A DNA stretch of 64,000 nt from Thiomicrospira pelophila DSM 1534 (GTDB taxonomy: Bacteria > Pseudomonadota > Gammaproteobacteria > Thiomicrospirales > Thiomicrospiraceae): assembly GCF_000711195.1 (NCBI RefSeq), contig NZ_JOMR01000001.1, forward strand, positions 248,001 through 312,000. Reading direction: 5' to 3'. The translations under genes were made by a program, and so were the position numbers. Numbering within the stretch: the stretch's first letter is position 1; the number at the start of each line of letters is the position of its first letter. Positions 2,465-8,406 of this stretch are shown piece by piece. Below the pieces are notes generated by a model. It searched no databases, was not told the origin of the DNA, and saw only the letters and a list, made by a program, of their open reading frames with translations.

Positions 2465-2481
2465 ATGGGATAATTTCCCAT
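2465..2481. promoter_or_regulatory. Palindromic operator 1 (ATGGGA-N5-TCCCAT)
   Basis: 17-bp inverted repeat, 27 bases upstream of the start of the Gln/Met-rich peptide gene, so over its likely promoter. It is the exact reverse complement of operator 2. The regulator is not identified. Confidence 0.6.
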
Positions 2482-2498
2482 TTCAGTTAAAACTCTAT

Positions 2499-2515
2499 AT
2501 GGGAAATTATCCCAT
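2499..2515. promoter_or_regulatory. Palindromic operator 2 (reverse complement of operator 1)
   Basis: 17-bp ATGGGA-N5-TCCCAT palindrome whose centre is 34 bp from that of operator 1, about three helical turns, so the two sites face the same side of the DNA. It lies where the -35 region of the rightward DUF6502 gene is expected (possible -10 TATCAT at 2532). It may control both divergent genes. Confidence 0.6.
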
Positions 2516-2566
2516 GTCAATCTTATTTTGGTATCATAGTGCAAAATTTATATTGGAACGCTTAAT

Positions 2567-3415
2567 GTGACTCACTCGGAATCTTCAATTTTTATCAAAA
2601 TGGTGCTGTTAGTGTTACGGCCATTGATACGTATGCTGCTTAAGCAAGGGGTGGCTTACCCACTGTTCATTGAACTGGTTAAATCCAGTTATGTCCAGGT
2701 CGCGGAGCAAAGTATTGGTCATGCAAAAACACCGACAGATAGCTTAATTAGCGTACAAACCGGGCTCAATCGTAAAGAGGTCAAACGCCTGAGAAATTTA
2801 GATAACGATCCAGAGTTAAGCGCAAAGTTTAAGCAGGCTGGTATTGGCGCACAAATCGTGTCAATTTGGTTAAGCCAACCGTCCCTACTTGACCCAAAAG
2901 GCCAGCCGAAGCCGTTAGCGAGAGTGGGATTGGAGAGTCAAAATATGTCGTTTGAAGGTTTGGTGCGCTCGGTAACAAAGGATGTGCATCCACGTTCAAT
3001 ATTAGATGATTGGTTGGCACGTGGATTTGCGCGAATAGACGAAAATGATCAAGTGCACCTTACTCAAACCGCGTATGTACCTTCTGAAGATCAAGATGAA
3101 AAACTGTTCTTTGCGCAAAAAAACCTCACCGCGCATTTGAATGCGGTGGCGCATAATCTTGAGAACGAACCTGATCAGCCTGTAATGTTTGAACGCGCGG
3201 TTTATTACAACAAGCTCTCGTCTGAATCAATTGACATCTTGGATGACTGGAGTCGCCAAGCATCCATGAAGCTACTTTCAGAGTTCAACCTTAAAGCCCA
3301 AGCTTTGGCCGAAAATGAGAAACCGTCGGATAAATTGCACGTGGCTCATCTTGGGGTATATTTGTATCGATCAGACATAGATGACCTTGTGCCACCTAAG
3401 GAGGGTCAGTCGTGA
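2567..3415 (+). CDS. DUF6502 family protein, possible DNA-binding regulator
   Basis: A 282-aa soluble protein starting at GTG 2567. The N-terminal part (LRPLIRMLLKQGVAYPLFIE) matches the DUF6502 pattern as I know it. Residues about 60-80 contain SVQTGLNRKEVKRLR, which reads like a helix-turn-helix recognition segment, and a second winged-helix-like stretch is near residues 125-160. A regulator role is inference from this and from the twin operators just upstream. It overlaps the DUF5666 gene by 4 bp (GTGA), so the two are translationally coupled. DUF6502 and DUF5666 genes are often neighbours in gammaproteobacteria, to my knowledge. Confidence 0.75.
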   Translation: MTHSESSIFIKMVLLVLRPLIRMLLKQGVAYPLFIELVKSSYVQVAEQSIGHAKTPTDSLISVQTGLNRKEVKRLRNLDNDPELSAKFKQAGIGAQIVSIWLSQPSLLDPKGQPKPLARVGLESQNMSFEGLVRSVTKDVHPRSILDDWLARGFARIDENDQVHLTQTAYVPSEDQDEKLFFAQKNLTAHLNAVAHNLENEPDQPVMFERAVYYNKLSSESIDILDDWSRQASMKLLSEFNLKAQALAENEKPSDKLHVAHLGVYLYRSDIDDLVPPKEGQS

Positions 3416-4512
3416 TCAATTTGCTAAAACGTCTAGGTTTTGTCAGCTTTTTGCTGGTTTTAATGCTCAACACATCCTGCCAAACCCACCCCAACTCAAT
3501 CGCCAGCTTGACCGTGCCCAGCGCATCGGACGAAAACGATTCGGGCTTTGGTGGAACTGGCTTAATAAATGATAGTGGCTTTGGCGGCACAGGCGTCATA
3601 GGCGTGGTCACCGGATTTGGCAGTATTTGGGTGAATGGCCTACACATTAAATTAGATCAGCAAACCCAAGTATCAAGTCAGACAGAAGCTTTTGATTTAG
3701 ACCAGCTCGAAATTGGCCACCAAGTCAGTGTTAAATTGAGAGACAACTCGGATCTAGCCGAACGAGTAGAAGTGTTTTGGCCGATTCAAGGGCCAATTAA
3801 CCAGGTTGATAAAGACAATCAGACCATCCAAGTGTTGGGTCAGACCATACAGCTTGATCAACACACGCAAGGCTTGGAGCAACTTAAGGTTGGCGAATTT
3901 GTGCGCATCAACAGCTTTGGCGGTTCGAACAACCAGGCCTGGTATGCGACACGCATCGAATCACAACCAGGCCAACAGGCTTATGTGGAAGCGATTTTAA
4001 ACCAAGCGTCAGACCAAAGCTGGACGGTGGCCGGTACAAAACTGGAAACAACTCAGCTACCCCAAAACCCCCAACAAGGACAGCTAGTGCGTTTGCAGTT
4101 TAAAACCGAAAACAAAGTTCCGCGTTTAACAAGTGTTGAGCCGGTTATACGAACTCAAAAGCTCGAATCACAACGCCTAATAATTCAAGGCCAACCTCAA
4201 CGTGTTGGCGATAGCTGGTGGCTAGAAGGGGTTAAGGTTCAAGGGTTGCAACAGACTTCGCCCGCTGGATTACAGTTGTTTGAACTGCAGCAAGATCAGC
4301 AGGGCTGGCAGATTCTAAACCGGATTGAAATGCGCTCATGGCTTAAAGATTGGCCACAAACCATGCGGCAGTCAATAAAGCCGAATCAAGGTTTGCGAGT
4401 AAATGAATTGTTTAAAACACGTCAGCTAAATCATATCGCGCCTAGAGGAATGAAGCCCATGCGCGAGACCAGACCAGCACGCCCACCAGTGACACCATCT
4501 CAAAGGCATTAA
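3412..4512 (+). CDS. DUF5666 domain lipoprotein
   Basis: A 366-aa protein starting at GTG 3412 inside the stop of the DUF6502 gene. The hydrophobic N-terminus ends LNTSC, a loose lipobox with Cys23. Two copies of DSGFGGTG follow (residues about 43-60), then repeated small beta-rich DUF5666 modules (GFGSIWVNGLHIKLD, then units around INQVDKDNQTIQVLGQ), and a Pro/Arg-rich tail. Such proteins are probably envelope-attached beta-fold domains of unknown function. One perfect copy of the dispersed palindrome is embedded in codons for NNQAWY (3932-3943). Confidence 0.75.
   Translation: MINLLKRLGFVSFLLVLMLNTSCQTHPNSIASLTVPSASDENDSGFGGTGLINDSGFGGTGVIGVVTGFGSIWVNGLHIKLDQQTQVSSQTEAFDLDQLEIGHQVSVKLRDNSDLAERVEVFWPIQGPINQVDKDNQTIQVLGQTIQLDQHTQGLEQLKVGEFVRINSFGGSNNQAWYATRIESQPGQQAYVEAILNQASDQSWTVAGTKLETTQLPQNPQQGQLVRLQFKTENKVPRLTSVEPVIRTQKLESQRLIIQGQPQRVGDSWWLEGVKVQGLQQTSPAGLQLFELQQDQQGWQILNRIEMRSWLKDWPQTMRQSIKPNQGLRVNELFKTRQLNHIAPRGMKPMRETRPARPPVTPSQRH
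3932..3943. repeat. Dispersed palindrome ACCAGGCCTGGT, perfect, in DUF5666 gene
   Basis: Exact 12-bp copy, read as N-Q-A-W in the host gene. Confidence 0.9.
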
Positions 4513-5272: not shown

Positions 5273-5716
5273 TTATTTTGTAGGATGTTCGTAGTGAATA
5301 TAGGTTTGCAACACGCCATAAGCCATGGTGCCTAATAGTAAGCCAGCAAACGTAAAGATTGCGCCGATTTTGCCTTCGGCCATCATGGCCGGAATGGTGC
5401 CTGGGCAGGCGGCGGTCATGCCCCAGCCGATGCCGAACAACATCGCGCCTAAAATCAAACCTTGCTGATAGGGCTTTTTAACAAAGTCCACTTGTTCGCC
5501 GGTAGCGATGGAATGGACTTGAAATTTTTTGAGTAAGAAAACACCAATCATCGCGACGACGACGGCGGTGACGATGACTTCCATTAACTGAAAATCAATA
5601 AACAAGAACATTTTGGCGTGATAGTCATAGGTGGTGGCACCGGCTCGGCTCATTAAAAAACCAAACAGTCCACCCATAATGAGGGCAAATAGATTTACTT
5701 TTTTCAAGACTTTCAT
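5273..5716 (-). CDS. YeeE/YedE family permease, C-terminal half subunit (PmpB-like)
   Basis: A 147-aa membrane protein with about four transmembrane segments. It matches the second half of the YeeE/YedE (TsuA-like) thiosulfate/sulfur-compound importers: the motif GWGMTAACPGTIPA contains the conserved Cys-Pro of the substrate path. It starts 2 bases after the stop of the first-half gene, so the two halves form one operon and presumably one heterodimeric permease, as in PmpA/PmpB. Substrate is inferred (thiosulfate, sulfite or another sulfur anion) from the family and the sulfur-oxidiser context. Confidence 0.85.
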   Translation of the reverse strand: MKVLKKVNLFALIMGGLFGFLMSRAGATTYDYHAKMFLFIDFQLMEVIVTAVVVAMIGVFLLKKFQVHSIATGEQVDFVKKPYQQGLILGAMLFGIGWGMTAACPGTIPAMMAEGKIGAIFTFAGLLLGTMAYGVLQTYIHYEHPTK

Positions 5717-5718
5717 GA

Positions 5719-6207
5719 TTACAACCCAAATAAAAGGTGAGTGGTAATTAACGCGCTGCCAAAGAACACCACCCCAGCTAATAAGCTAGGAGGGTTAAGC
5801 ATTGCGCCACCCACTAATGCATGACCGGTGGTGCAAGCGCCCGCGAGTCGCGCTCCAAAACCTAATAACATACCGCCAAACACCAACCAGATCGCTTTAG
5901 CGGAATAGGTTTGCGGCAGAATCGCATCATACATACCCATATCAAAACTTAGATGCCAGCTGTCGGCCGAAGTTAGGGCTGAAATTAGTCCGCCAATTGG
6001 AATGCCAATCAAAAACCAAAGTTTTGAGTTGTTAAGGTTGCTGTATTCGCCCATGCGAAAGAACTTGATTTTGCGACAGACTAGCCCGCAAAGATTGCCA
6101 TAGCCAGTTGAACAACCGGCTGGCTTACCTAGTAGCCAAAAGTGACTGATAACGAAAAGACCGATCGCGATACCAGCAATCCAGCCAGCCCAAACTGATA
6201 TTTCCAT
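5719..6207 (-). CDS. YeeE/YedE family permease, N-terminal half subunit (PmpA-like)
   Basis: A 162-aa polytopic membrane protein. GKPAGCSTGYGNLCGLVC near residues 28-45 and GARLAGACTTGHALVGGA near residues 118-135 are the conserved Cys/Gly motifs of the YeeE/YedE fold. It lies directly upstream of the second half (2-base gap). The promoter gap 6208-6333 holds ATAAACCCTATAAG (6211) and ATAGGGTATAAATAA (6281), two mutually inverted words that could bind a sulfur-responsive repressor; this is a guess. Confidence 0.85.
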   Translation of the reverse strand: MEISVWAGWIAGIAIGLFVISHFWLLGKPAGCSTGYGNLCGLVCRKIKFFRMGEYSNLNNSKLWFLIGIPIGGLISALTSADSWHLSFDMGMYDAILPQTYSAKAIWLVFGGMLLGFGARLAGACTTGHALVGGAMLNPPSLLAGVVFFGSALITTHLLFGL

Positions 6208-6307
6208 TTTATAAACCCTATAAGAAACTTTTATGCATATTTTGCCTGAAGTATCAGTAGCTTCAAGCTTAGGTTTTTTTATAGGGTATAAATAAACTTT
6301 ATTAAGG

Positions 6308-6319
6308 ACCGGGCCTGGT
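6308..6319. repeat. Dispersed palindrome, 1 mismatch (ACCGGGCCTGGT)
   Basis: About 14 bases past the stop of the leftward hydrogenase gene. Confidence 0.7.
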
Positions 6320-6333
6320 GATTGATTTTGTCG

Positions 6334-8406
6334 TTAAGTTACTTCTCTAACTAGGCGAGTAATGTAATATTGAGTATCTGAACTTGTTTGTATCGGTTGC
6401 GTTTCGATATGGAAACGACAAAGTTCACCGTTCGGCGTAATCACACTTAAGTCTTCATGGTCAGCTCGCGATGCCATTTTGTGACGTTGATAGTGGGTCG
6501 CATAATGTCTGGCCGGTAAGCGTTGTTCAATCAAGGCTTGAATATTAGAGCGACCTTTAATTTCGCCCAATGGCGAAGCGGTCTGCCAAGTCGCGTCGGG
6601 ATGAAATAAGGCCGCGGCTTCTTGACCGGCACGCCGATCAACACAATCCAGAAAACGCATTAATAAAAGTCGCTTAGAGTGGCGTGACGCATAATGAGTA
6701 TGTAATAAATCATGCGCCTGCTCAGAGCCGGGTTGATTTAACTCGGTCTGATAAAGTGTTTGAATATCCGGGTTTTCATAAGAACGTCTGCGCGGCGAAT
6801 TGGCGTCAATGCTATAAATAGCCTGCATACGTTTTTCTAGGACGAGCGGATCGAGCGATTTTGGCTCGCCTCCGCCACCTAAACAACCACCGACACAAGC
6901 CATGACTTCAATTGCGACAAATTCATCGCGCCAGGTTTCCGAAGCAAACAGCTTTTGAGCACTGGCGATGCCGTTACAAATTGCGACCTTGCCCACGCCA
7001 GGAATATCGGCGGTTTTAACCCCTTGTGCCACGCCGCGCATTTGCTGCCATTCCAGCGGCATATTATCTTGTTGGCCGATAAAATGCGCCGCGGTGCGAA
7101 CCACGGCTTCCATCACGCCGCCCGATGCACCAAATATTTGCGCCGCCCCGGTGCTTTCACCCAATGGATTATCAAACGCGCCATCTTCGGGTAGAGCATT
7201 AAACGCAATGCCTCGGGCTTTAATCATTCGGGCCAATTCGCGTGTGGTTAATACGTGATCAATATCGCCCGATACGCCTGGCCGTTGGGCTTCATCTTTT
7301 TTGGCTGTACAAGGCATCACGCTGACCACATAGGGTTCCGCTTGGCCTTCGGCAAACTCCGCACCAAGCGAGCGTGCAAAAGCGCCACGTTTGGTGAGCG
7401 CGCCGTGCATTTGTTGCGGAGATTTTGTGGTGCTTAAATGGCTTAAAAGGTCGGGTCGATTAATTTCCACCCAGTTCACCCAGCCCGGGCAGCAAGACGT
7501 TAACAGCGGTAAGTTTTGCTGGCTTTTCAAGCGGCCCAAAAACTCTGTGCCTTCTTCCATAATAGTCAAATCCGCCGCAAAGTTGGTATCAAACACATAA
7601 TCAAACCCCAGCTGGCGCAAGGCATTCACCATGCGTCCGGTGCTGATTGTGCCGGGTTTCATGCCAAATTCTTCACTAATCGCCACTCGCGTGGCCGGCG
7701 CAACTTGAACCGCCGACACACGACGGTGATTATCCAAAGTGTGTAATACTTCGTGCCAATGTGGGGTTTCAATCAATGCCCCAACCGGGCATACCAGCGT
7801 GCATTGACCGCAAGAAATACAGTTGGTTTGGGCTAAGGATTGATCAAATACCGTGACCGGAATGCGCCCAGAACCGCCTTCGGCAAATCCAATAATATGT
7901 TGTTGTTGACCTGCATCACCGCAAGCTTCGGCGCATAAGCCACATTCAATACACTTGGAAAGATCGCGCCAAATACTGGGCGAGGTATGATCGGTGAGAT
8001 GATGTTCAGGATGGTCTTCTGAGCCGCGTTCAAGTTTGGGCCAGCGATCTTCTAATTGATACTCACTCACCAATTCTTGAAACTGACAGGAGCCATTGAC
8101 TTCACAGCGAATGCAATCGTTTGGGTGGCGCGCCAGTAGAAACTCAAGATCGGTTTTGCGAAATTCAGTTAACTCCGCCGAATCGGTCACCACCACATCG
8201 CCGTCTTTGACGGGCGTGATACAGGCTGGTTGAGGGCGTTTTTCGCTACTGACATCCACCAAACACATGCGACACACACCATGAGAAGGTAAGCGCGGGT
8301 GATAACAAAGTGTAGGCAGATGCACGCCTGCAGCTTTAGCGGCGTTTAAGAGGGTTGTGCCGTCCTCGACTTCGACCAATTTACTATTTACCGTGACCTT
8401 AAGCAT
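6334..8406 (-). CDS. [FeFe] hydrogenase with C-terminal SnoaL/NTF2-like domain
   Basis: A 690-aa cytoplasmic iron hydrogenase of the M3 (CpI-like) layout. An N-terminal [2Fe-2S] domain has Cys34, 45, 48 and 62. A His-ligated [4Fe-4S] motif follows (HPNDCIRCEVNGSC), then two [4Fe-4S] motifs (CIECGLCAEAC and CISCGQCTLVC). The H-cluster has TSCCPGW (303-309), MPCTAKK (from 364) and MACVGGC (502-508), so the proton-relay Cys305 and ligands Cys306, 366, 504 and 508 are all present. The usual Pro in MACPGGC is Val505. After the normal end near residue 580, about 105 extra residues look like a SnoaL/NTF2 fold (CVDRRAGQEAAALFHPDATW). It either evolves or oxidises H2. No HydE, HydF or HydG maturase gene is in the window. 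Confidence 0.93.
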   Translation of the reverse strand: MLKVTVNSKLVEVEDGTTLLNAAKAAGVHLPTLCYHPRLPSHGVCRMCLVDVSSEKRPQPACITPVKDGDVVVTDSAELTEFRKTDLEFLLARHPNDCIRCEVNGSCQFQELVSEYQLEDRWPKLERGSEDHPEHHLTDHTSPSIWRDLSKCIECGLCAEACGDAGQQQHIIGFAEGGSGRIPVTVFDQSLAQTNCISCGQCTLVCPVGALIETPHWHEVLHTLDNHRRVSAVQVAPATRVAISEEFGMKPGTISTGRMVNALRQLGFDYVFDTNFAADLTIMEEGTEFLGRLKSQQNLPLLTSCCPGWVNWVEINRPDLLSHLSTTKSPQQMHGALTKRGAFARSLGAEFAEGQAEPYVVSVMPCTAKKDEAQRPGVSGDIDHVLTTRELARMIKARGIAFNALPEDGAFDNPLGESTGAAQIFGASGGVMEAVVRTAAHFIGQQDNMPLEWQQMRGVAQGVKTADIPGVGKVAICNGIASAQKLFASETWRDEFVAIEVMACVGGCLGGGGEPKSLDPLVLEKRMQAIYSIDANSPRRRSYENPDIQTLYQTELNQPGSEQAHDLLHTHYASRHSKRLLLMRFLDCVDRRAGQEAAALFHPDATWQTASPLGEIKGRSNIQALIEQRLPARHYATHYQRHKMASRADHEDLSVITPNGELCRFHIETQPIQTSSDTQYYITRLVREVT

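Follow-up and report, generated by a model that had tools for sequence, protein, structure and literature searches.

Which protein reads the two mirror-image palindromes that lie between the genes for a Gln/Met-rich exported peptide and a DUF6502 protein in Thiomicrospira pelophila, and what does it control through them? The first-pass annotation had described two exact 17-mers with centres 34 bp apart in a 128-bp divergent gap, and both are present as described in the window (the whole 64,000-nucleotide stretch analysed; Table 1). ATGGGATAATTTCCCAT and ATGGGAAATTATCCCAT are reverse complements of each other, and both lie within the gap at 2439-2566, bounded by the peptide start at 2438 on the minus strand and the GTG start codon of DUF6502 at 2567 on the plus strand.

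Two exact palindromes in a divergent gap

The two copies of ATGGGA-N5-TCCCAT are the only exact ones in the 2,108,215-bp genome, and 100 dinucleotide shuffles of the window produced none. The observation consists of these two exact sites, with no wider cloud of degenerate ones: allowing two mismatches gave no enrichment across the genome (31 matching places, the reversed control having 43), and one mismatch gave a single place, inside a gene that we take to be flgL-like. A wider regulon in this genome was therefore rejected. Putative operator 1 (2465-2481) is identical in genome G058, and G057 keeps it with an altered spacer; when the three genus gaps are aligned, the dyads and an adjoining GTCAA stand out against G057, G058 being too close for contrast.

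Pfam bears out the family names DUF6502 (82.1 bits against a cut-off of 27) and DUF5666 assigned at first pass. Homologues of the peptide were tagged in G058, G057 and G013, and, of the 25 DUF6502 loci mapped in the family, 12 (the present one among them) encode a homologue of the barrel-like protein whose gene lies downstream of the peptide. The DUF5666 protein has GFGGTG repeats and, in its AlphaFold model (pLDDT 74), all-beta domains behind a signal-like helix; its lipobox-like Cys23 is kept in at least 90% of 38 aligned sequences. In DUF5666 proteins of loci L094-L173 the exported amino end carries GIGGTG or GFGGTG motifs, and many of 25 sequences have several of them. A fold search with the DUF5666 model returned no match at E 0.001, and the DDB1 entries that topped it were taken as repeat-beta artefacts (TM ~0.1, rmsd ~18); a local Foldseek match to PilY2 reached E 0.011, with an rmsd of 1.4 over 65 columns. 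A weak CusF match (E 0.027, below cut-off) is only a hint at metal. We know of no role for DUF5666. Adjoining the cassette, at 5273-8406 on the minus strand, lie genes that, judging from their translations, presumably encode a YeeE/YedE-like pair and an iron-only hydrogenase-like protein. The sections available of a study of A. ferrooxidans contain a single mention of a DUF5666 gene, as an entry in a table of genes (PMC10714799).

Table 1. Features of the locus, in window coordinates, and tandem 44-aa peptide arrays, in coordinates of the loci named.
Feature	Coordinates	Strand	Remarks
Outer-membrane-barrel-like protein, 235 aa	1359..2066	-	Weak PF10082 match, E 0.0023, below cut-off; downstream of the peptide gene
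Gln/Met-rich exported peptide, 102 aa	2130..2438	-	Signal-peptide-like start, read by eye
Putative operator 1	2465..2481	.	ATGGGATAATTTCCCAT; 17-bp dyad, N5 spacer; exact match
Predicted sigma-70-like promoter, peptide side	2492..2520	-	TTGACA (2520-2515), 17 bp, TAGAGT (2497-2492)
Putative operator 2	2499..2515	.	ATGGGAAATTATCCCAT; 17-bp dyad; exact match
Possible extended -10 of the DUF6502 promoter	2529..2537	+	TGgTATCAT, by eye
DUF6502 protein, 282 aa, proposed autoregulator	2567..3415	+	PF20112, E 3.9e-23; AlphaFold pLDDT 89.5
DUF5666 protein, 366 aa, probable lipoprotein	3412..4512	+	PF18914, E 2.5e-15; overlaps the DUF6502 stop
44-aa peptide array, L083	2340-2678
44-aa peptide array, L084	2300-3013
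44-aa peptide array, L087	1755-2260
44-aa peptide array, L088	1271-1792
44-aa peptide array, L068	3528-3843

The site recurs with DUF6502

DUF6502 is present in 38 of the 62 genomes of the family. Within the genus, the exact palindrome is found in all three genomes with DUF6502 and in none of the six without it (Fisher p 0.012, a value that, like the other Fisher p values given here, ignores kinship), and each of the two DUF6502-bearing relatives carries it twice, 33 and 32 bp apart. Seven exact sites in the 62 genomes compare with three for the reversed control; six lie at DUF6502 and one inside an ORF. The latter, the single match in G027 within an ORF of L069, looks like chance.

Other genera have variants in the same layout, namely ATGTAA-N5-TTACAT, hybrids such as ATGTAA-N5-TCCCAT, and TTGGGA-N6-TCCCAA. 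We collected DUF6502 genes from named genomes as well, where 415 relatives were found and the best 80 loci taken, and made the set distinct at the helix-turn-helix (HTH) region, dropping genes without G[LVIM]xRx[EDQ][VIA]. Near the start (-330 to +40 bp), 73 of the resulting 134 genes have a site and 33 have at least two, against a mean of 0.90 genes (maximum 3) in shuffles and 5 of 134 for a 370-bp intragenic stretch; the half-site rule was learned from these loci, so the count of 73 is no blind test, whereas the shuffle and inside-gene controls are blind. Thus a check proposed at first pass, a search for the palindrome at other DUF6502 genes, turned it up in both remaining genomes of the genus that have DUF6502 and, in variant form, far beyond the genus. 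Some rows of the wider locus set are redundant: L187 is the present locus, L094 and L035 are the same place, as are L095 and L023, and L142 and L185 look alike.

For the other 61 of the 134 genes, the rule used finds no site within this near range. About 15 of them have a site of a stricter type up to 1.8 kb upstream, a range without a shuffle control. The site is ~1.1 kb upstream of DUF6502 in Pseudomonas loci, and five Methylococcales-type loci have the variant GTGGTAAnnnTTACCAC. No site was found in a group of five genes (L040, L043, L044, L046 and L047) or in the most divergent DUF6502 members (L189-L193, L196 and L197).

At the scale of the phylum, 21 of 398 sampled genomes encode DUF6502, the family also occurs in named alpha-, beta- and gammaproteobacterial records, and the site takes the form RTGGGA-N5-TCCCAY. 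This pattern is found in 15 of the 21 genomes with DUF6502 and in 96 of the 377 others (p 3e-5), with a reversed control that equals or exceeds the pattern count in many phylum genomes. Six AT-rich-spacer sites in DUF6502-free genomes (L198-L203) look like chance: all but L200, which lies between ORFs, fall within a predicted ORF, and none of the six loci has a tagged DUF6502 or DUF5666 gene. The second site of G204 (L204) likewise has neither gene beside it and looks like chance. One further locus, L149, comes from a metagenome-assembled genome titled Klebsiella pneumoniae; its DUF6502 gene groups with uncultured Gammaproteobacteria, and the organism label is probably wrong.

DUF6502 and DUF5666 form the constant part of these loci. 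They were tagged as adjacent in 23 of 25 mapped family loci, the ORF caller having dropped the DUF6502 frame in the other two; of the family genomes, 37 have both genes, 1 has DUF6502 alone, 3 have DUF5666 alone and 21 have neither (p 2e-12). In the wider set, 75 of 106 rows show the adjacency (profile cut-off E 1e-4, allowed gap -60 to 400, rows at contig ends counted). At L074 and L076-L079, where the neighbours are unrelated, the site stands directly at the DUF6502 start. The site tracks the DUF6502-DUF5666 pair rather than the neighbours, which change between genera.

Such a distribution bears on the rival idea that some unrelated regulator, with its gene elsewhere, binds the palindromes and has DUF6502 as just one of its targets. 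The many DUF6502 genes without a near site would be in keeping with a regulator of that kind. Yet the sites are gone where DUF6502 is absent, both in the genus and, for ATGTAA-N5-TTACAT, in the family (see below), and within the constant pair DUF6502 alone has an HTH-like model.

Spacer length follows the DUF6502 clade

A tree of the 134 DUF6502 proteins contains a 15-gene clade with support 100, of which 12 genes have N6 sites; two of the other three (L003 and L004) have CGGGA-type N6 dyads, and L006 is one letter off the rule. Counting sites up to 1.8 kb upstream, the remaining 119 genes comprise 75 with N5 sites, one with a doubtful N6 site (L126) and 43 with none. This match of spacer and clade is one deep split and thus a single evolutionary observation. 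Genomes G022, G024 and G028 each hold one gene per clade, and every paralogue has its own operator type. Clade-matched operator types side by side in one genome are hard to reconcile with a third-party regulator.

The residue after G-[LVI] in the presumptive recognition helix also differs between the two groups. Thirteen of the 15 N6-clade genes have Ser, Thr or Ala there, and L003 and L004 have Asn; among the other 119 genes the residue is His in 110, and in T. pelophila's own genus it is Asn. This residue was rejected as the sole cause of spacer choice, as L038 has Ser together with N5 sites.

Variant sites lead to a small set of exported proteins

The variant ATGTAA-N5-TTACAT occurs 44 times in 18 family genomes, against 9 sites for the reversed control, and those genomes make up 18 of the 38 with DUF6502 and 0 of the 24 without it (p 2e-5, kinship ignored). 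Four gene types account for 38 of the 44 sites: 19 lie at the DUF6502 cassette, at most 3 kb upstream of the DUF6502 gene, 5 at standalone DUF2202 genes (PF09968), 7 at genes for exported Gln-rich peptides and 7 at tandemly arrayed genes for 44-aa exported peptides. One Thiomicrorhabdus-like genome, the source of L083, L089, L090 and L039, has all four types together. Six sites lie elsewhere, two of them in a ruvB-tolQ-like gap, two beside a membrane-protein gene (G042 and G050) and two in G031. The apparent ruvB-tolQ gaps, at L210 and L214 (G026 and G033), are named on our assumption as to the flanking genes; if these sites are real, they would link the Tol system to the regulon.

DUF2202 proteins are ferritin-like, with weak matches to Ferritin_2 and Rubrerythrin. 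Genes for exported DUF2202 proteins stand behind the same operator at L086, L089, L091, L218 and L219 and at the operon heads of L059, L062, L063 and L069; some stand alone and others open the DUF6502 cassette. The 44-aa arrays follow single or twin ATGTAA-N5-TTACAT sites in five DUF6502-carrying genomes. Their peptides have a predicted mature amino end of His-His (cleavage placed by eye), which one L087 copy extends to His-His-Asn. The arrays of L083, L084 and L088 lie near genes that we take to encode ABC-F ATPase-like or CN-hydrolase proteins (the latter with a profile match, PF00795), kinds of gene that flank DUF6502-DUF5666 in L082.

For TTGGGA-N6-TCCCAA we found 18 sites, fewer than the 21 of the reversed control, and the support from this form therefore lies in location, not number. 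Eight sites are at DUF6502 and six head DUF5666 genes (L053-L058); the location count leaves out four (the second site of G015, and those of G023, G029 and G042), which have G or C in the spacer. The DUF5666 genes of L056-L058 clearly have no adjacent DUF6502 and are clean targets in trans. In L053 a DUF6502 gene follows DUF5666, and L054 (G038) and L055 (G039) run off the contig end, with no DUF6502 found in either genome; at L055 and L056 the ORF caller placed the gene start at or before the site.

The presence of sites before some DUF5666 and DUF2202 genes that have no DUF6502 next to them would again suit an unrelated regulator. Weighed against the loss of sites from genomes without DUF6502 (none of six in the genus for the exact form, none of 24 in the family for ATGTAA-N5-TTACAT) and against the paralogue-specific operators, we consider this explanation improbable.

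Promoter geometry and a proposed mechanism

The predicted promoter on the peptide side has 10 of 12 consensus matches; the scan of the region returned two promoter-like sites against 1.4 expected, which is weak alone. Both G057 and G058 retain its GTCAA, which adjoins the operator. The possible extended -10 on the DUF6502 side was not picked up by the scan; it is kept in G058 and not clearly in G057. The spacer of the predicted minus-strand promoter is filled by operator 2, which also lies over the -35 zone of the possible promoter on the plus strand; operator 1 comes shortly after the point where the peptide transcript is expected to start.

At 22 of 107 N5 sites GTCAA comes directly after the site in the DUF6502 direction, and at none does it do so on the other side (counted after being noticed), as if the operator had a divergent promoter's -35 (TTGAC) built in. 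In most N6-clade loci with TTGGGA-N6-TCCCAA, the dyad itself contains a TATAAT, immediately ahead of the DUF6502 start codon. Twin sites are mostly spaced by 28-44, 52-55, 62-66 or 88-93 bp, and once by 138 bp, values that are roughly helical.

The same geometry helps to judge whether the dyads act as RNA hairpins, in an attenuator or terminator, instead of as DNA operators. The segment 2497-2517 with its T-rich tail did scan as terminator-like (one found against 0.1 expected). However, operator 2 lies upstream of both predicted transcription starts (by scan and by eye), the N6-clade site contains a -10-like element and would thus not be fully transcribed, and hybrids such as ATGTAA-N5-TCCCAT (L017, L020 and L048) break the pairing and keep both half-sites. 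RNA hairpins are, in our judgement, extremely improbable.

We find it very likely that DUF6502 is a DNA-binding one-component regulator and that the two palindromes are its operators. Genomic evidence is what gives us this confidence; the fold of the protein, discussed below, is not its footing. A DUF6502 dimer would read the half-sites RTGGGA and TCCCAY with a helix that carries G-[LVI]-x-R-K-[ED]-V-K-R. Of the two sites, operator 2 falls within the spacer of the predicted peptide promoter and on the -35 zone of the possible DUF6502 promoter; operator 1, some three helical turns off, is just past the expected peptide start. From these positions relative to the promoters, bound protein would shut both the peptide-porin and the DUF6502-DUF5666 units, and release by an envelope-related signal would switch the two divergent units on together. 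We infer the dimer state, the repression and the binding by DUF6502; given binding, autorepression is probably the mode. Joint control of the peptide and the DUF6502-DUF5666 pair, an idea of the first-pass annotation, fits both the predicted promoter geometry and the trans targets.

DUF6502 might instead bind to activate the divergent units or act on them as a dual regulator; this variant of the binding hypothesis overlaps with our preferred reading, and we regard it as rather unlikely. Twin sites at roughly helical spacings would suit an activator too, and a 17-bp site in the -35/-10 spacer resembles MerR-type control, in which the regulator's site lies in that spacer. Repression is better suited by the N6-clade site over a -10-like element and by operator 1 downstream of the expected peptide start.

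As an autorepressor, DUF6502 would most likely govern a small envelope regulon, perhaps a metal-handling one. The metal idea comes from the target types alone, which include ferritin-like DUF2202 proteins, Met/Gln-rich peptides and peptides with a predicted His-His amino end; as the signal or theme of the regulon, metal is our best guess, and a tentative one.

The DUF6502 fold

The AlphaFold model of DUF6502 has an HTH-like part at about residues 28-79 and a winged-helix-like part at about 88-168. Residues 28-79 locally match the HTHs of sigma region 4, a TetR-type regulator and Fis, and residues 88-168 match the winged helices of MarR, IclR and MntR types (both Z 5-5.8, rmsd mostly 2-3.5); some of these family names are our own assignment. 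The model thus points to HTH-like and winged-helix-like parts, at Z values below 6 that can reflect a common arrangement. The HTH-like segment noticed at first pass falls within the first of these parts, where its support amounts to a moderate local Z. Foldseek found no significant match for the model in the PDB (best E 0.24, cut-off E 0.001), a PDB sequence search found no DUF6502 relative at E up to 10, no NCBIfam family scored over its cut-off, and Pfam names only DUF6502.

Among the structural matches listed, the top five, which are also the only ones to span nearly the full length, are all HetR entries (Z 6.3-7.3, rmsd 9-11.6), with 206-223 residues aligned and a best Z of 7.3 at rmsd 11.6, where Z below 8 may mean a common arrangement. 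The HetR fold comprises a DNA-binding domain, a flap and a hood in an intertwined dimer. An overall HetR-like architecture of DUF6502 is no more than suggested by this model comparison. Homology to HetR by sequence is unsupported: profile-profile alignment with HHalign gave a probability of 0.1 on a scale of 100, with a HetR profile of two sequences only. The HetR family was not among 25 of the 27 Pfam families listed for 69 DUF6502 members.

Significance and relation to known systems

At first pass, the regulator and operator of this system had been called undefined, and we found no description of a DUF6502 operator or regulon in the literature searched. Our search retrieved no paper naming DUF6502 or DUF2202, and four naming DUF5666; for the motifs, such searches cannot prove absence. 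A palindrome-binding autoregulator is a known kind of system, and what appears new, within the limits of the search, is the description of the DUF6502 operator and regulon. If our reading holds, DUF6502 goes from a family without a function to a transcription-factor family with a stated operator, RTGGGA-N5-TCCCAY, or TTGGGA-N6-TCCCAA in one clade. Used as a search string, this operator would bring DUF5666, DUF2202 and the Gln/Met-rich and tandem 44-aa exported peptides into one regulon, and the function of these orphan gene types would become testable. The match between spacer length and DUF6502 clade would pose a clean specificity problem.

Among known systems, the exported all-beta domain string of DUF5666 is like PilY2-like proteins in its local match, and it differs from them by its lipobox-like cysteine and GIGGTG repeats. 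The MarR, IclR and TetR types of autorepressor resemble DUF6502 in the local domain matches and in having the operator in their own promoter; unlike them, DUF6502 has two DNA-binding-like parts in one 282-aa chain.

HetR offers the broader parallel. In the portions available of two papers, HetR is described as a dimer on a G-tract palindrome with an N-terminal HTH, and as binding both its own promoter and that of patS, a peptide gene (PMC4649674, PMC4192349); its recognition rule is given as GGG-N5-CCC (PMC4192349). DUF6502 may be like HetR, as portrayed there, in its near full-length structural match, its N-terminal HTH, a G-tract palindrome and sites at its own promoter and that of a peptide gene. 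We also considered that DUF6502 could be a proteobacterial HetR counterpart, controlling exported peptides and fed back on by one of them, perhaps as a metal-peptide complex, with the tandem 44-aa peptides (predicted His-His end) or the Gln/Met-rich ones as candidates. The metal status of the envelope would then be linked to a regulon of secreted peptides; we regard this reading as very improbable. The two differ in lineage and gene context and, on the HetR rule as given in that portion of the literature, in the operator itself, which in the same notation is GGG-N7-CCC for DUF6502 and GGG-N8-CCC for its N6 clade.
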